This document shows, in pieces, positions 18,243 through 63,359 of a DNA stretch of 64,000 bases; the first letter of the stretch is position 1; each line of letters opens with the position of its first letter. The translations under genes and the position numbers were made by a program. This DNA is from Methanooceanicella nereidis. Lineage in GTDB: Archaea; Halobacteriota; Methanocellia; Methanocellales; Methanocellaceae. The stretch is taken from the NCBI RefSeq assembly GCF_021023085.1, contig NZ_PGCK01000003.1, positions 186,001-250,000 on the forward strand. Direction: 5' to 3'. Below the pieces are notes generated by a model that saw only the letters and a list, made by a program, of their open reading frames with translations, was not told the origin of the DNA and did not search any database.

Positions 18243-18651
18243 AACCACGAAGCGCACGAAGGCGAGTAAGGTACACTATACTGTTAACCACGAAGCGCAC
18301 GAAGGCGAGTAAGGTTCACTATACTGTTAACCACGAAGCGCACGAAGGCGAGTAAGGTTCACTATACTGTTAACCACGAAGCGCACGAAGGCGAGTAAGG
18401 TACACTATACTGTTAACCACGAAGCGCACGAAGGCGAGTAAGGTTCACTATACTGTTAACCACGAAGCGCACGAAGGCGAGTAAGGTACACTAATTTTTT
18501 TTAAAATATATGCTTATCTTCTAAAAAAGTTCTTTGTGTTCCTTGTTCGCCTTTGTGCGCTTTGTGGTTAGCAGTTTTGTGTTCCTTGTTCGCCTTTGTG
18601 CGCTTTGTGGTTAGCAGTTTTGTGTTCCTTCGAGCCCTTTGTGGTGAAAGG
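18243..18651 (+). repeat. Repeat locus 1: inverted arrays of a 43-bp unit
   Basis: Six direct copies of a 43-bp unit start at 18243, 18286, 18329, 18372, 18415 and 18458 (core CCACGAAGCGCACGAAGGCG). After a roughly 45-base AT-rich centre (18493-18535), at least two and a half copies of the same unit follow in inverted orientation (GTGTTCC at 18536, 18579 and 18622), also spaced by 43 bp. Copies differ only by GTACAC/GTTCAC. The locus fills the convergent gap between the marker 16 gene and aroD. Units abut without unique spacers. Confidence 0.95.
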
Positions 18652-55637: not shown

Positions 55638-56834
55638 TCACTTTGGTATGACGGTCTTTATCGGGTACGGGATCTCAATGCCCTCTTCTTTGAACCTTGC
55701 GAGCACTTTCCTGTATATGACGTCAGGCACGCTGAGGTCTTCCCTGTACGAGTCGATCCATACGAGCATCGTGATGTCCACCGAAAAGTCGCCCAGTGCG
55801 GAAACATATGCCCTCGGACCAGGCTCTTTCGATACCTGGGGCAATTCCGAAGCGATCCTTTCCATTATCGCACACGCCTTATCGACGTCCGACCTGTAGG
55901 ATATGCCCACTTTTATCGTGACACGCACCTTTGAACTGGGCTGGGACATGTTGACTATCTTGCTTCTCGCCATCTCCTCGTTAGGCACGATAACTACCCT
56001 GTTGTCCATCGTCCTGATGCGCGTGCTTCGCAGGCCGACGTCGAGCACGTCCCCCTGTCCTATGCTGGGAAGTATGAGCCTGTCACCTACCTTGTAAGGC
56101 CTGTCGGTCAATATCGCAACAGCGCCGAACAGGTTGGACAAGGACTCTTTGGCAGCCAGCGCCACCGCGATACCCACGACCCCTAGGCTCGCGATCAGCG
56201 GCGTGATCTCAACGCCAAACTGCCCTATGATCATTATGACCGCTATCGAGTATACCAGCACGACCAGGAACTTTCTAAGGAATGGCATCAGATGGTCGTC
56301 AAGGTCCGAATTGGTTTTCGGGGCCACGTCCGTTACATACCATTTTATTATTCCTTTTATCAGGTTTGAAACGACGTAGGCGCATAAGAGTATGAGCACG
56401 ATCGCGGAAAGCCTGTCCAGCATCGTGATGGCGTTCACCGGCATATGATTGATAGTCTTGAACGCCAGGTAGATGCCGGCGACGATGACTATGACCTGTA
56501 TCGGGCCTTTTATGACCGATAATATCTCGTCGTCCAGCGTCGACTTGGTCTTTGAGACAAGATGGGGGGCTACATCCAATACGATCCTCTTGACGATCTC
56601 GGATAAGATAAGGAATATGGCAACGATCAACAGTGCTGCCATCAGGTCGGCAATAAACGGGCTTAAGCCGGTGTTCATGGATATCCAGTTTTCTATGGCG
56701 TCAGCGAAGGGGTTAATGTCCATAAAGCTTCCGGCGGTCGCACTGGCAGTGGAGTTCACTGTATCGTTCGCCGGCTGCGTCATAGCGATTGGGTCATTAG
56801 GCAGTGAGCTGCTATTGTCCACGATCTCGAGCAT
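55638..56834 (-). CDS. mscS: Small-conductance mechanosensitive channel, MscS family
   Basis: 398 residues. About five transmembrane helices (from residue ~35 to ~240) precede the pore helix and conserved beta domain: GVVGIAVALAAKESLSNLFG then AVAILTDRPYKVGDRLILPS and NRVVIVPNEEMARSKIVN, hallmarks of MscS. The C-terminal domain ends EGIEIPYPIKTVIPK. It releases solutes on osmotic downshock. It is the next gene downstream of the CBS operon on the same strand, 349 bp away. Confidence 0.93.
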   Translation of the reverse strand: MLEIVDNSSSLPNDPIAMTQPANDTVNSTASATAGSFMDINPFADAIENWISMNTGLSPFIADLMAALLIVAIFLILSEIVKRIVLDVAPHLVSKTKSTLDDEILSVIKGPIQVIVIVAGIYLAFKTINHMPVNAITMLDRLSAIVLILLCAYVVSNLIKGIIKWYVTDVAPKTNSDLDDHLMPFLRKFLVVLVYSIAVIMIIGQFGVEITPLIASLGVVGIAVALAAKESLSNLFGAVAILTDRPYKVGDRLILPSIGQGDVLDVGLRSTRIRTMDNRVVIVPNEEMARSKIVNMSQPSSKVRVTIKVGISYRSDVDKACAIMERIASELPQVSKEPGPRAYVSALGDFSVDITMLVWIDSYREDLSVPDVIYRKVLARFKEEGIEIPYPIKTVIPK

Positions 56835-57183: not shown

Positions 57184-57945
57184 TTATATGGCCTTGATGA
57201 TATCCCTTCGAGTTATCATACCGATGACATGGTTGTTTTCATTCATCACAGGCAGTGCGCCGATATCTTTTTCTATCATCAGTTTAGCCGCATCTTTTAT
57301 CTGCGTATCGTGGGGCACCGTGATAACGCTGACGCTCATTATGTCCATGGCGATAAGCATCTCGACCTTGTTGTCCTGCCGGTTTTGCTGGGCATGCTTT
57401 TTTATTCCCCTGAATGCCTTTGCGATATCGGTCTCAGACACAAGTCCGACCAGCACATGCCCGTCCATGATCGGGACGCGCGTCACTCCTTTCTCCATCA
57501 TCAGCTTTCTTATATGCGCCACTCTCGCATCCGGGGGTGCTACTACCGGCATCTTCATGATCGACGACACCGTTCCTGCCGGCGTGGCGTTCCTGATGAC
57601 GTCCTTGGTGGTGATCGAACCGACGACATCGCCGTCTACAACTACTACGCAATCGACGTCCTTTAGCATGCTTATGGCTTTCTTCAGGTCATCTTCAGGG
57701 CCGATCATGCTGAAATTGTTGCTCACTGCATCGCATACATGGAACAGCGACGGCGGGTGGTTATATTTTCTCCTTGAGCCAAGTTCCCCGCATATGCTCC
57801 TTAAGGTCACTATTCCCTGGACTTCGTCCTTGTGTTTAACGACCAGCCTTCTGACATGGTATTTATCCATCATGTCGAGAGCTTCGGACATCCTGGCCGA
57901 TTTATCGATCGTATGCGGTTTAGACATGATATCTTTCACTTTCAT
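57184..57945 (-). CDS. Four-CBS-domain protein (CBS operon gene 5)
   Basis: About 253 residues holding four CBS motifs (roughly 1-60, 65-130, 135-190 and 195-253), with typical segments KVKDIMSKPHTIDKSARM, VSSIMKMPVVAPPDARV, GVTRVPIMDGHVLVGLVSE and DIMSVSVITVPHDTQIKD. Paired CBS motifs bind adenosyl ligands such as AMP, ATP or SAM. ATG 57945 is chosen as it follows GGAGG and overlaps the upstream stop (ATGA). It has no enzymatic or membrane domain. Last gene of the five-gene operon. Confidence 0.92.
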   Translation of the reverse strand: MKVKDIMSKPHTIDKSARMSEALDMMDKYHVRRLVVKHKDEVQGIVTLRSICGELGSRRKYNHPPSLFHVCDAVSNNFSMIGPEDDLKKAISMLKDVDCVVVVDGDVVGSITTKDVIRNATPAGTVSSIMKMPVVAPPDARVAHIRKLMMEKGVTRVPIMDGHVLVGLVSETDIAKAFRGIKKHAQQNRQDNKVEMLIAMDIMSVSVITVPHDTQIKDAAKLMIEKDIGALPVMNENNHVIGMITRRDIIKAI

Positions 57946-58787
57946 TCCGGGGCCTCCGATAGCCATTTCAGTATGTTCATGTAGTTGAACTGGCCGGTCA
58001 GCTCGCCGTTTATGACCGGCAGCGCATCATAGTTGTTATCTACCATGATACGGGCGGCGTCGACCGCCTTATCCTCTCGCTTCACGGATGCCAGCGGTGT
58101 CGACATCACGTCCTCAGCGACTATCATGGCCTCCCTGAAATGCCTGTACTTCTTCTGACCTGCATAGGATTCTTTTCTCGTCTCCTTGATATCCTTGACA
58201 TGCCTGGGGTTTATTTCCACGAACCCGAGGTCTGCCATGTTTATAAAGCCCACGTACGGGCTAGTTTCAAGGCCGTCAGTGACTATGACGTTCTCCGCTT
58301 CATTCTCGTCCATGAGATCCATTATGCTGTTTATGGTATGGTGCCTGCTCACTTTCAACATGTTAGACGACATCATGTCCCCGACGCGAAGGTTGCATCC
58401 CAGGAGAGTGAAAAATTTTACAAGATCATGCTTTGTCACGATACCTTTGACCCTATCATCAAAAACGATGAGGCTTGATATCTCGTTCTCAAGCATGAGC
58501 GCGGCAGCTTCCTGTACCGGGATATTCGACGTGACCGTGATCGGGTTCGGCGTCATAACAATCTCCACAGGTATGCTATCGAGCGGACGCCTTCTCCATT
58601 GCGGCTCTGCCTGGTTTAACCTCGCAGCGAGGTCTTTTTTAGTAACTATCCCTTTAAGGTCTTCACCGTCCATCACGACAAGCCTGGAAACTCCGTTGCG
58701 GAGCATCAGGTTTCTCGCCCTGGCAAGGTTATCGCTCATAGATACGGCGAAGACAGGCGAAGACATTATTTCGCCGACCTCTGTCAT
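57942..58787 (-). CDS. Four-CBS-domain protein (CBS operon gene 4)
   Basis: About 281 residues with four CBS motifs; the third (about 130-190) is separated from the fourth by a longer basic linker (KETRKESYAGQKKYRHFREA). Motif-like stretches are VGEIMSSPVFAVSMSDN, VEIVMTPNPITVTSN, VGDMMSSNMLKVSRHH and AEDVMSTPLASVKRED. ATG 58787 overlaps the upstream stop (TGATG) after GGAGGAGGA. Confidence 0.92.
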   Translation of the reverse strand: MTEVGEIMSSPVFAVSMSDNLARARNLMLRNGVSRLVVMDGEDLKGIVTKKDLAARLNQAEPQWRRRPLDSIPVEIVMTPNPITVTSNIPVQEAAALMLENEISSLIVFDDRVKGIVTKHDLVKFFTLLGCNLRVGDMMSSNMLKVSRHHTINSIMDLMDENEAENVIVTDGLETSPYVGFINMADLGFVEINPRHVKDIKETRKESYAGQKKYRHFREAMIVAEDVMSTPLASVKREDKAVDAARIMVDNNYDALPVINGELTGQFNYMNILKWLSEAPE

Positions 58788-59761
58788 CACTCCTCCTCCT
58801 TCAATGACATCATTATATCGTGCTCCGTGATAATCCCGGCCAGCCCTTCATCGCTGATGACCGGGAGGCAGCCGATCTTATTCCTGTACATGAGCTTTGC
58901 CGTAGCCCCCAGGTCTTCATCCGGCCGCACCGTGATTATCTCGCCTTTCATGATGCTGCTCACCGGCAGGCTCAAGGCCTCGTCAACGTTGCCCGTCACC
59001 AGCTTTTTGAACGCATCCCCGCTTCCCAGGTATCTCATTATGTCAGTCGCGGTGACTATGCCGCAGACCAGGTTATTCGAGACTATCGGTAGCCTGCGGA
59101 AACCGCTCTCTATCATCGTCTTTGCAGCCGACTCTATGGACATGTCCGGCGGCGCCGTAGTGACCCTTTCGCTCATCACGTCGCTTATCCTCTTACCCGA
59201 TATCGTCTCGCCCATCAGATGGACAATATCTCTCTCTGTTATGATGCCCACGATCTTTCCATCCTCCGTGACGACCGGAGCGCCTCCTATGGATCTCTCT
59301 ATCATTGTGGAGACCGCGTCTTCCAGCGAGGAGCTATCCTGTATCGTGATGACTTCCTGCTGCATTATCTCAGTTATGGGGCCGTTTATCGCCACGATCA
59401 TGTTACCGTCATATTTTTTGTCTATGATCTGGCGTTTATCTCCGCCCCCTAAAAAATCGATCACATCTACGACAGTGCAGATACCTTCTATCCTCTTTGT
59501 CCCGGGGTCGGCCACCGGCAGCCTTCTATATCCATACCCCACCATAGTCCTGGCCGCTCCCATGATCGTGGTGGTGGGCGGTATAGTGACGACATCCTTG
59601 CTCGCCACGGCCATGATACCGCTTACATGCTGGGATATGCGCTGCTTGAAATCCAGCGGGCCTTTAGTAAAGCTTTCATTCAGGTCATGTACGAACTTTC
59701 CTGTGTTAGCGCGGCGTGAACGCCTGTTTTTTCCAAACTCATTTATACCTTCCCTAGTCAA
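58787..59761 (-). CDS. Four-CBS-domain protein with basic N-terminal extension (CBS operon gene 3)
   Basis: 324 residues. The first ~40 are basic (KNRRSRRANTGK) and carry no recognised domain; four CBS motifs follow (about 45-105, 125-185, 190-250, 265-322), with VSGIMAVASKDVVTIPPTT, ITEIMQQEVITIQDSSS, ISDVMSERVTTAPPDMS and VSSIMKGEIITVRPDED. The start is TTG 59761, overlapping the upstream gene by eight bases; no ATG or GTG fits before the first CBS motif, so the exact start is uncertain. Confidence 0.9.
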   Translation of the reverse strand: MTREGINEFGKNRRSRRANTGKFVHDLNESFTKGPLDFKQRISQHVSGIMAVASKDVVTIPPTTTIMGAARTMVGYGYRRLPVADPGTKRIEGICTVVDVIDFLGGGDKRQIIDKKYDGNMIVAINGPITEIMQQEVITIQDSSSLEDAVSTMIERSIGGAPVVTEDGKIVGIITERDIVHLMGETISGKRISDVMSERVTTAPPDMSIESAAKTMIESGFRRLPIVSNNLVCGIVTATDIMRYLGSGDAFKKLVTGNVDEALSLPVSSIMKGEIITVRPDEDLGATAKLMYRNKIGCLPVISDEGLAGIITEHDIMMSLKEEE

Positions 59762-60539
59762 CCAGCATCGGCCTCCTGCAAGCTCTTATGATATCAAACC
59801 TGTCGATTATGCCCACGATCTTGTTATCCCTTACGACCGGGACCCTGCCGATATTTCTTTCGATGAATATCTTCGCCACCTTTTTTATGCTGTCATCCTC
59901 GTTCACGGTCACCGGGGGCGTCGTCATGATCTTTTGGACCGTAGTGGATGTCATGTGACCTCTTTCGCTCTCGCGCTCTATCCTGGCATAGCCCCGCTTC
60001 ATAATATCCTCACGCGTGACCATGCCTATAACTTCCATATCTTTACTTACGACGGGAAATCCGGTTATCTCGCGCTCTATCATGTTCAGCCATACGCGCG
60101 ACACGTTTTCTTCAGGCTCGCAGACCAGGACTTTTTTTGTCATATAGTTCTTCACGGGCTCATCCTGTAACTCCAGGTCCCCTATGCCCTGAAAAATGTC
60201 GACAATGCTTAAAAGGCCGATAAGGCGTCCATTATCGTCAACTACCGGGACTCTGCCCTCATCCGTGCCCAGCAATGTCCTGGCAGCAGCGGCAAGGCCT
60301 GTTGAACGAGTCACCGTGGGGACATTTCGCCTTATGAACCCTTTGACCGTGACATTCGATCTGGTCGATGTCACCTTGATCACGTCCTGGATGGTTATCA
60401 TGCCCTCGATTTTTTTATCATCGTCAACGACAGGCAAGCTCTGGTAGCCGTATTCCCTCATCAGCTCCCTGGCCCTCGTCACGAACTCATTGCCATTTAT
60501 CGATACCGGGTTTACGGACATCATATCTTCGACTATCAT
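59754..60539 (-). CDS. Four-CBS-domain protein (CBS operon gene 2)
   Basis: About 261 residues, four CBS motifs (about 1-55, 66-120, 128-185, 200-255): VEDMMSVNPVSINGNE, VKGFIRRNVPTVTRST, VKNYMTKKVLVCEPEEN and VQKIMTTPPVTVNEDDS. Set at ATG 60539 since GGTGAT lies immediately upstream; a longer in-frame start at 60596 would overlap the previous gene by 40 bases. Confidence 0.92.
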   Translation of the reverse strand: MIVEDMMSVNPVSINGNEFVTRARELMREYGYQSLPVVDDDKKIEGMITIQDVIKVTSTRSNVTVKGFIRRNVPTVTRSTGLAAAARTLLGTDEGRVPVVDDNGRLIGLLSIVDIFQGIGDLELQDEPVKNYMTKKVLVCEPEENVSRVWLNMIEREITGFPVVSKDMEVIGMVTREDIMKRGYARIERESERGHMTSTTVQKIMTTPPVTVNEDDSIKKVAKIFIERNIGRVPVVRDNKIVGIIDRFDIIRACRRPMLVD

Positions 60540-60556
60540 CATATCACCAGGTTTTT

Positions 60557-61147
60557 TTATTGATAGAATGGGAGATCTTCCCTGCAGCTCGAGCATACGT
60601 ACTTACCGTCGATGTATTCCAGGGACTCCTGGAACTTCTGGCAAACCTCGCATATGCCCTGGATAAAAGTAGTGGGGTTTCTCGTCTCCATCACTTCTTC
60701 CGATTCCTCTGAAAATTCTCCCTGGGGATTATTTTGCCTGATAAGGTCTCTCAGTATCTCGCTAAGCTCTGATGATACCATCATTAGGTCAGAATCGGAT
60801 ACTAGCCCGATCAATTTGTTACCCTGCACCACAGGGAGCCTGCGGATCCTGCGCCTGGACATTTCCCTTGACGCAAGCTCAACGCTCTTGTCCGGTGTGA
60901 TAGTGATCAGGGGCCGGGACATAATGTCCTCGGCTACGACTGTAGAAGGAAGAAGATTCTTTGATACGATCTTTACGACAATGTCGCGCTCGGTGACTAT
61001 TCCTACTGGCCGCGCGCCCTTAGTGATGATAATACACCCCACTTTAGCTTCGGACATTATGCTGCCAAGCCTGTCCGCAGTTTCAGAAACATCGGCTGTT
61101 ATGAGCCTTCGCGACATGACGTCGCTAACGGGTAAATCGGTCTCCAT
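60557..61147 (-). CDS. Two-CBS-domain protein with C-terminal zinc ribbon (CBS operon gene 1)
   Basis: 196 residues. Two CBS motifs (about 5-62 and 70-128; VSDVMSRRLITADVSET and AEDIMSRPLITITPDKS) are followed by an acidic linker (GEFSEESEEVMETRN) and a zinc ribbon C-E-V-C ... C-S-S-C in the last 35 residues. The architecture differs from the four downstream genes and suggests a nucleic-acid- or protein-binding output. First gene of the operon, with GAGGAGC before ATG 61147; its promoter lies in the 210-bp gap shared with the divergent GTPase gene. Confidence 0.92.
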   Translation of the reverse strand: METDLPVSDVMSRRLITADVSETADRLGSIMSEAKVGCIIITKGARPVGIVTERDIVVKIVSKNLLPSTVVAEDIMSRPLITITPDKSVELASREMSRRRIRRLPVVQGNKLIGLVSDSDLMMVSSELSEILRDLIRQNNPQGEFSEESEEVMETRNPTTFIQGICEVCQKFQESLEYIDGKYVCSSCREDLPFYQ

Positions 61148-61357
61148 CTGGCTCGCTCCTCAAGAATCTATATAATCTATGTTATATTATGATGATAATA
61201 TTATTAATATTATCCGTTTTTTAATATGTTAGTAGTATCTATGTGGCGGGGCCATAAAAAACAAACATATCCTCTTACCATCTTCTGGCGTATGCTCGAT
61301 AAGAGAATATTTTAATATAGTTAAAATGCCATAAATTAACACTCGCAGGGGAATTGG

Positions 61358-61993
61358 ATGGCATTTATAGCAAAGCTTAAGAGTAATCTATCTAGCTTTC
61401 TAAGCAGTATATTTAAGAAAAAAGTATCGCGTATAGGAATATACGGGCCGCCGAACGCGGGCAAGACGACGCTTGCCAACCGGGTAGTGACCGACTTCAC
61501 GGGCGAGACCATCGGAACAGCGTCAAACGTGCCACATGAGACCAGAAGGGTCAAGAAGCGTGACGGCGTGACAATATCGAGCAACGGCTCCTCCATAACG
61601 CTGGACATCGTCGACACTCCGGGGCTTGCCACTAAGATAGACTTCCATGATTTTATGGAGATGGGCATACCGGAAGAAGAGGCGAAAAAAAGGGCAAAAG
61701 AGGCTACCGAAGGAGTCATAGAGGCTATAAAGTGGATGGATAACCTTGACGGCGTCCTGCTTGTCATGGACGCGACGCAGGATCCGTATACTCAGGTCAA
61801 CGTCACCGTCGTCGGCAATATGGAGGCAAGAAGCCTTCCGATGCTCATAGTCGCCAATAAAATGGACCTCCAGGGTTCCTCGGTGGAGCGTATCAAGGGC
61901 GCATTCCCTCAGCATACGGTCGTACCGATATCTGCGCTGGAAGGCAACAATATTGATCTTTTGTACGAGACCATAGCGAAGAGATTCGGGTGA
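61358..61993 (+). CDS. Era-like GTP-binding protein of archaea
   Basis: A 211-residue small GTPase: G1 GPPNAGKTT (30-38), a switch region with ETRRVKKRDGV, G3 DTPGLA (86-91) and G4 NKMD near 166, with an N-terminal basic/hydrophobic helix (1-22) that could contact membrane or RNA. In many euryarchaea it is clustered with the DUF2073 and zinc-ribbon genes that follow here. Its molecular role is not established. AGGGG precedes the start ATG. Confidence 0.9.
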   Translation: MAFIAKLKSNLSSFLSSIFKKKVSRIGIYGPPNAGKTTLANRVVTDFTGETIGTASNVPHETRRVKKRDGVTISSNGSSITLDIVDTPGLATKIDFHDFMEMGIPEEEAKKRAKEATEGVIEAIKWMDNLDGVLLVMDATQDPYTQVNVTVVGNMEARSLPMLIVANKMDLQGSSVERIKGAFPQHTVVPISALEGNNIDLLYETIAKRFG

Positions 61994-62000
61994 TGCGCCG

Positions 62001-62354
62001 ATGTCGGATGAGGTTCAGATAAACATCATATCAGCAAACAGGATGCAGTCGATGAACACAATGGAAAAGATAAGGCTTATCCTGGATGACGTCATGAACG
62101 GCCATATCGTAATACTCGAAAAAGGCCTCGACCCGATGGAAGAAGCAAAGCTCATCGAGTTCACGATGATACAGATACGTAACGACGTATTCTCCGGCAT
62201 CGAGATACAGAGCTATCCGCGCGACCAGAAAAAGTCGGCGATAGGAAAATTGTTCGGTAAAGACCCCGATTCTCGCATGACCGTCATAGGCCCGGCAAAT
62301 CGTTTAAAGAGCATAAAGAAAGAAAAAGATATCATCTCTGCCCTTATAGCATAA
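62001..62354 (+). CDS. DUF2073 family protein
   Basis: A 117-residue protein of the conserved archaeal DUF2073 family: QINIISANRMQSMNTMEKIR, ILDDVMNGHIVILEKGLDP and a C-terminal KLFGKDPDSRMTVIGPANRL. It begins seven bases after the GTPase stop and ahead of the zinc-ribbon gene, the conserved order of this trio. Possibly RNA-binding; the function is not firmly known. Confidence 0.85.
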   Translation: MSDEVQINIISANRMQSMNTMEKIRLILDDVMNGHIVILEKGLDPMEEAKLIEFTMIQIRNDVFSGIEIQSYPRDQKKSAIGKLFGKDPDSRMTVIGPANRLKSIKKEKDIISALIA

Positions 62355-62363
62355 GGTCGTAAT

Positions 62364-62822
62364 ATGCCCCATAAATGCATGGACTGTAAAAATATCATAG
62401 AATCAGGCTCGATGGACCTTGAAAAAGGCTGTCCTGTATGCGGTTGTAAAAAATTCCAGTACATCAGGCCGAAAAAGGAACCCAAAAAAGCAAAGCAAAC
62501 GGTTGCAGAGTTTGTGACCGAAGCCGCTTCCGCAGAGCCTGCCCCGACTGAGGCTCAGCCAGAGGCTCCGCCCGTCACGCCACTGGAAGATATCATAGAC
62601 GTCATTAAGCCGCCCTCACCCACAAAAAATAAAAACGAGGCCGCTGACAAGAAGTCCGAATTCGATAGGATCGACAGTGTACGCATTCTGGAAAAAGGCA
62701 GCTATGAGATCAACCTTCCGATACTATTGAACAGAAAAGAGCTTGTTATGTCCAAGGAAGAGGGTAACTACATAGTAGACCTGCCGTCCGCGCTAAAGAC
62801 CTCTAAAAAGAAGCGCAAATGA
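62364..62822 (+). CDS. Zinc-ribbon protein of the GTPase/DUF2073 cluster (DUF2072-like)
   Basis: 152 residues. An N-terminal zinc ribbon has CMDCKN and CPVCGCKKF (Cys at 5, 8, 25 and 28 plus C30). A Pro/Ala/Glu-rich linker (about 50-90) joins it to a C-terminal domain with VRILEKGSYEINLPILLNR, the conserved end of this archaeal family, and a basic tail. Third gene of the trio; repeat locus 3 starts about 30-45 bp after its stop. Confidence 0.85.
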   Translation: MPHKCMDCKNIIESGSMDLEKGCPVCGCKKFQYIRPKKEPKKAKQTVAEFVTEAASAEPAPTEAQPEAPPVTPLEDIIDVIKPPSPTKNKNEAADKKSEFDRIDSVRILEKGSYEINLPILLNRKELVMSKEEGNYIVDLPSALKTSKKKRK

Positions 62823-62866: not shown

Positions 62867-63258
62867 CCACGAAGGGCTCTAAGGGCTCGAAGGTCCACTA
62901 TTTTTCACCACGAAGTGCACGAAGGCGAGTAAGGTACACTAGACTGTTAACCACGAAGCGCACGAAGGCGAGTAAGGTACACTAGACTGTTAACCACGAA
63001 GCGCACGAAGGCGAATAAGGTACACTAATTTTTTTAGTATATGCTAATCTTCTAAAAAAGTCTTTTGTGTTCCTTGTTCGCCTTTGTGCGCTTTGTGGTT
63101 GGAAGTCGTGTCCTTGTTCGCCTTTGTGTGCTTTGTGGTGGGAGTTAGTGGTCTTTGTTCGCCTTTGTGTGCTTTGTGGTTGGAAGTCGTGTCCTTGTTC
63201 GCCTTTGTGTGCTTTGTGGTGGGAGTTAGTGGTCTTTGTTCGCCTTTGTGGTAGCGAA
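62867..63258 (+). repeat. Repeat locus 3: inverted arrays with an 81-bp higher-order dimer
   Basis: Direct units begin at 62867, 62908, 62951 and 62994 (last three spaced by 43 bp). A centre (63023-63065) closely matching that of locus 1 (TATATGCT.ATCTTCTAAAAAAG) is followed by about five inverted units (TTGTTCGCCTTTGTG...). Here the inverted units form two copies of an 81-bp dimer beginning GGTTGGAAGTCGTG at 63097 and 63178. It lies in the convergent gap between the zinc-ribbon gene and the secreted protein gene. Confidence 0.93.
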
Positions 63259-63359
63259 AGAAATAGCTATTTTTTTAATGAATCAATATGAGACGGTTAA
63301 AACTGACCGGATTACAGAACGCTTGGATACGTTCTAAAAGAAGTCCGGGGCATGAAGAT

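Follow-up and report, generated by a model that had tools for sequence, protein, structure and literature searches.

A five-gene CBS-domain operon of Methanooceanicella nereidis as a probable ribosome-hibernation set with a zinc-ribbon partner

The presented results indicate that an operon of five CBS-domain genes in Methanooceanicella nereidis is most probably a CBS-module ribosome-hibernation set, consisting of CM-5, CM-4, CM-1 and CM-2 along with a CBS-zinc-ribbon partner (ZnR-CBS); the probability of this reading is put at about 0.8. The operon lies in a window of 64,000 nucleotides, which is the whole stretch analysed (positions 186,001 to 250,000 of contig NZ_PGCK01000003.1), and its genes are co-directional on the minus strand from position 61147 down to 57184. 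Gene 1 (60557..61147) encodes the ZnR-CBS protein of 196 aa, with two CBS stretches and a C-terminal four-cysteine zinc ribbon in a Ta0289-like architecture. It is followed by four genes with four CBS stretches each: gene 2, assigned as CM-5 (59754..60539), gene 3, assigned as CM-4 (58787..59761), which is MJ1225-like and has a basic N-terminal tail, gene 4, assigned as CM-1 (57942..58790), with a conserved QAEPxWRRRPID segment and a basic CBS3-CBS4 loop, and gene 5, assigned as CM-2 (57184..57966), for which a PDB chain match was found. The 18 CBS stretches (2+4+4+4+4; Pfam PF00571, E 6e-25 to 7e-59) are part of 48 such matches in the genome. The longest ORF of gene 2 reaches 60596; however, its true start is likely to lie inside this ORF at about 60539, because the PDB ortholog from M. 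acetivorans begins at query residue 20-21. If gene 2 begins at this internal start, a 17-nt gap separates it from gene 1, while genes 2 and 3 overlap by 8 nt with a TTG start, genes 3 and 4 overlap by 4 nt, and genes 4 and 5 also overlap. The coordinates and the Pfam matches therefore confirm what the earlier note had described, namely five same-strand genes joined by overlaps or short gaps and carrying 18 CBS motifs.

The comparison with the PDB sequence set revealed that genes 2-5 each best-match a different one of four distinct chains of the entries 9ZNF and 9ZNI. The best match of gene 2 was 9znf_4 (E=1e-57), that of gene 3 was 9znf_5 (E ~6.5e-84, with MJ1225, 3kh5, as the next one at E=6e-66), that of gene 4 was 9zni_6 (E=8e-56), and that of gene 5 was 9zni_7 / 9zng_7 (E=8e-56). 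The CBS chains of 9ZNF pair with genes 2 and 3 and those of 9ZNI with genes 4 and 5, and 9ZNG showed a single CBS chain, the ortholog of gene 5. Over the aligned regions, the four chains share 89-96% identity with their counterparts in the clusters of Methanosarcina contigs; at scores exceeding 110 bits, no chain matched any family but its own. The ribosome entries were traced via ribosomal proteins (uL14, uS12) like those of the M. nereidis genome. One uL14 sequence is common to 9NRI, 9NTA, 9O17, 9OU7, 9ZNF, 9ZNG and 9ZNI, and one uS12 sequence is common to 9O17, 9ZNF, 9ZNG and 9ZNI. The entries 9NRI, 9NTA, 9O17 and 9OU7 are M. acetivorans ribosomes, 9O17 being a 70S particle (PMC12605026). 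As uL14 and uS12 are both identical to those of 9O17, the entries 9ZNF, 9ZNG and 9ZNI are Methanosarcina acetivorans ribosomes, and the co-occurrence of the two proteins means that the orthologs of genes 2-5 were all found with both ribosomal subunits. The ribosome-bound members are these orthologs from M. acetivorans. A literature search by PDB code returned no paper on 9ZNF, 9ZNG or 9ZNI. The presence of a CBS chain in a ribosome model is not in itself a proof of hibernation.

HibA, six families of CBS modules and an archaeal CM-5/4/1/2 gene cluster have been defined in a recent study (Nat Commun 2026; PMC13324472). According to its text, CM-1, CM-4 and CM-5 were found in dormant ribosomes, the role of CM-2 is called unresolved, and Dri was derived from a CM-5/CM-1 fusion. 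The family assignments given here are based on Dri lobes, MJ1225, PDB chains and the conserved order. The CM-5-type profile of gene 2 matches the N-lobe of Dri (42-291) as well as the full length of the HibA CBS module, and the next best match of the CM-1-type profile of gene 4 is the C-lobe of Dri (332-633), which fits the identification of genes 2, 3, 4 and 5 as CM-5, CM-4, CM-1 and CM-2, respectively. Both the stand-alone four-tandem-CBS proteins and the gene order CM-5, CM-4, CM-1, CM-2, which characterize the published cluster, are found in M. nereidis. Judging from these matches, genes 2-5 correspond to the published cluster, and the operon can be regarded as a typical representative of a system recognised only very recently. 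Moreover, the occurrence of CM-2 as a chain in two ribosome entries bears on its role.

The arrangement is conserved far beyond this genome. A CM-4 ortholog (E<=1e-35) was detected in 183 of 295 genomes of the phylum, and the full order Z-5-4-1-2 (Z being the ZnR gene) is present in 61 of the 80 named loci anchored on CM-4, a recurrence which places the five-gene set far from chance. This order recurs phylum-wide in dozens of genera, and the Methanocella contig MVRA01000104.1 carries the same arrangement as M. nereidis; the conserved order for which the earlier note had proposed a search is thus borne out, and the relatives are not scattered singly. Reduced forms (Z-5-4, Z-4-1-2, Z-4-2 and Z-4) also occur, and in most of them the missing modules are truly absent according to genome-wide searches. 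An exception is family f2, where Z-5-4 stands together and CM-1 and CM-2 lie jointly on another contig. In Methanolobus, 5-4 is found at one place and Z-1-2 at another. In both groups the seam of the cluster, 5-4 / 1-2, is the same as the pairing of the PDB chains (9ZNF vs 9ZNI). As a separate observation, CM-2 is seemingly duplicated at one locus (L133) or split into two ORFs at two others (L120, L123).

Gene 1 proved to be, as the earlier note had stated, a protein with two CBS stretches and a zinc ribbon, which is visible both in Pfam and in a CxxC-x15-CxxC motif at residues 166-188 (Cys 166/169/185/188). All four ribbon cysteines are retained in 105 of 106 gene 1 homologs, among which the GIVTERD motif of CBS1 is also conserved. 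The AF2 model of gene 1, with a pLDDT of 86.5 that drops to its lowest values in the linker, resembles CBS pairs and aligns over its full length with Ta0289 (2qh1/1pvm), whose structure is that of an Fe(II)-bound CBS-rubredoxin-like protein. Where 3 kb or more of upstream sequence was available (84 CM-4 loci), the ZnR gene is located upstream of CM-4 in 80 cases; the four exceptions are three Methanolobus loci, in which ZnR stands beside CM-1/2, and one assembly in which no ZnR was found. The gene stays with CM-4 in reduced sets where other modules were lost, and when the cluster splits it follows either half (5-4 in f2, 1-2 in Methanolobus). This pattern suggests that gene 1 belongs to the CM system as a constant component, a link found in no paper, and that its probable task is to regulate or recruit the CM set specifically. 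Isolated ZnR genes occur in some families without CM-4 (L051, L077). Their surroundings yielded no CM gene or further CBS relative, and at the two isolated loci examined the neighbours with a Pfam match serve ordinary metabolism or repair (PGK, RadA, phosphoglycerate mutase). No ortholog of gene 1 was found in PDB entries, including ribosomes. In two Methanosarcina (L135 5379, L138 5357), the ZnR ORF has 422 aa and about double the score, and apparently consists of two fused ZnR-CBS copies.

In many relatives, the next gene of the operon encodes an ATP-dependent RNA ligase of the Rnl3 family (Pab1020/MthRnl; PF09414+PF18330). Rnl3 lies within 1.5 kb of the cluster in half of the loci (63/126), typically with a 4-nt overlap (loci with downstream Rnl3 include L196-L199, L208-L214, L068, L071, L073 and L084-L110). 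In the count anchored on the ligase, it was located downstream, on the same strand and at most 9 kb from CM-4 in 69 of the 74 genomes having both genes, one of the CM-4 coordinates (G007) being approximate; in three of the five exceptions, all Methanolobus-type genomes, the cluster is split, and in the other two the genes are on different contigs. Rnl3 therefore appears to be a frequent cluster component in relatives, a connection which was found in no paper. A search for the ligase family gave no Rnl3 in the M. nereidis genome and its three family members. Rnl3 has otherwise been linked to HARP (PMC12153264).

In the proposed mechanism, a drop in energy would cause the 4-CBS discs to bind idle ribosomes and to occupy their functional sites. 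Homology to Dri suggests that CM-5 would block the peptidyl-transferase/tRNA region of 50S and CM-1 the mRNA channel of 30S. Two sets, CM-5+CM-4 and CM-1+CM-2, appear to be the acting ones. Adenine nucleotides in the Bateman clefts would report the energy state, and in gene 1 the CBS pair would serve for sensing and the metal ribbon for an RNA, protein or redox contact. Most CBS domains of CM-4 retain the T..D (ribose/phosphate) motif of the clefts, which is nearly universal in CBS1 and CBS4 of CM-4 and in CBS1 and CBS2 of CM-1, but weak in CBS3-4 of CM-1 and in CBS1/CBS4 of CM-2, so the nucleotide sites are probably unequal. According to the text of PMC13324472, HibA, the closest relative that has been characterised, prefers AMP, and its binding to the ribosome shows no nucleotide effect, so that energy sensing is a putative role. 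Highly conserved basic stretches of CM-1, WRRRPID and K.IK..RK...G.K..RY between CBS3 and CBS4, may touch rRNA; the latter is also recognisable in the C-lobe of Dri. The contact of operon proteins with nucleic acids, which had been suggested earlier, is judged plausible.

The neighbourhood of the operon was also inspected. A gene for MscS follows it at 55638-56834, as expected from the earlier note. The divergent GTPase trio reported there as Era-like is present (61358..62822, plus strand, outside the CBS operon), but it is more than Era-like, as it represents arvA/arvB/arvC (oapABC; PF01926, PF09846, PF09845), its second and third genes matching OapB and OapC above the Pfam cut-off. OapABC was renamed ArvABC, and ArvA has been shown to drive the formation of extracellular vesicles in Haloferax (PNAS 2024, PMC10927574). 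Methanocellales, Methanomicrobiales, Archaeoglobi and others also have arvABC placed divergently beside the CBS operon, but the Methanosarcina loci do not. Between the two lies an AT-rich region, read from the sequence as a divergent promoter (61148..61357). An operator was sought there and rejected, as the inverted repeats in the window are rich in AT and their repeat structure is not conserved, and only a short ATAATATT block upstream of gene 1 is common to four Methanocellaceae. Elsewhere, two distant sites of the window carry arrays built from near-identical copies of a 43-bp unit (AACCACGAAGCGCACGAAGGCGAGTAAGG...), and a related 40/81-bp array is also present (18243-18493, 62907-63027, 63067-63250); the arrays create a repetitive ORF (63067-63291) that is probably spurious.

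The main reading of the earlier note was a complex sensing energy or SAM, with the zinc ribbon as its output. Of that proposal, the co-translated and enzyme-free set of paralogous CBS proteins and the occurrence of their relatives together in complexes still stand, whereas the free-standing hetero-oligomer with a zinc-ribbon output does not; as the main reading, it was displaced by the ribosome-structure matches, since M. acetivorans ribosome structures contain orthologs of all four 4-CBS proteins and no PDB entry includes a zinc-ribbon ortholog. In its remaining form, that is, a cytosolic hetero-oligomer that regulates enzymes or transcription, with ribosome binding being incidental, this explanation could draw on the similarity of the MJ1225-like gene 3 to AMPK gamma, on the metal ribbon of gene 1, and on the CM-3 family, which in the text of PMC13324472 includes the transcription regulator HhpR. 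It is nevertheless improbable, as the best references of the four genes are CM-5/4/1/2 and not CM-3, and two of the orthologs have their counterparts in the lobes of the established hibernation factor Dri. Similarly improbable is a module for ribosome assembly, quality control or rRNA repair that is not related to dormancy and serves the RNA ligase of relatives. The position of Rnl3 downstream of the cluster and the aberrant rRNA fragments which accumulate after rnl deletion in T. kodakarensis (PMC9014305) favour it; yet M. nereidis and its family have kept all five genes without Rnl3, dormant ribosomes were the reported source of CM-1/4/5, and the active sites of the ribosome are blocked by Dri and HibA (text of PMC13324472).

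The part of gene 1 in the ribosome-hibernation set is a separate question. It is quite possible, even if the balance is against it, that gene 1 only neighbours the set, either unrelated to it or in a regulatory role such as that of an autoregulator of the operon, without being a functional partner of the ribosome-bound proteins; the lack of its ortholog in ribosome entries and the stand-alone homologs in some families without CM-4 would be in line with this. On the other hand, gene 1 accompanies one half or the other where the cluster is divided, and its constant position upstream of CM-4 fits an autoregulator and a physical partner alike. Also less likely than not, and put forward as a tentative extension, is a dormancy-and-repair module, in which two ribosome-capping CBS pairs would be directed by ZnR according to energy or redox state and a co-translated Rnl3 would, in many related orders, reseal the rRNA of parked ribosomes.

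Summarizing, an anonymous CBS operon may be read as serving ribosome hibernation, with a composition of five parts that lends itself to testing and in which ZnR-CBS, a constant but unstudied partner, is a candidate coupler of cell state to archaeal ribosome parking; the results also offer a genomic clue to CM-2 and may place the archaeal RNA ligase Rnl3 in a physiological context. Among known systems, Ta0289 (1PVM/2QH1) shares with gene 1 the CBS pair and the C-terminal four-cysteine ribbon, but is only ~20% identical to it, and it is not known to be part of a hibernation cluster. The close homolog of gene 3, MJ1225 (3KH5), has reportedly been studied as a stand-alone adenylate-binding, AMPK-gamma-like protein, and a CBS protein of Pyrococcus has been tied to replication (PMC3820547). 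HibA, an HPF/RaiA-CBS hibernation factor, has a 4-CBS module related to CM-5; the operon was rejected as HibA because Pfam gave no HPF/RaiA domain in genes 1-5. Genome-wide, no S30AE (PF02482) match was obtained with a model from which the archaeal HPF domain is perhaps too divergent. Dri of Pyrobaculum calidifontis (9E6Q/9E7F) likewise joins a large-subunit and a small-subunit CBS module, its N-lobe resembling gene 2 and its C-lobe, including the CBS3-CBS4 loop, gene 4. However, Dri is a single 655-aa fusion, whereas the operon has separate genes plus CM-4, CM-2 and the ZnR protein, and with its CM-5-type and CM-1-type modules unfused it was rejected as Dri. The words 'zinc' and 'ligase' are absent from the text of PMC13324472, a check covering its running text, and therefore no report of ZnR-CBS or Rnl3 as cluster partners was found there; the published text covers CM genes only, leaving the ZnR gene at the head and, in relatives, Rnl3 at the tail unmentioned. 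With the CM-5/4/1/2 cluster itself, the operon of M. nereidis shares the four 4-CBS genes, their identical order and the orthologs in ribosome structures.
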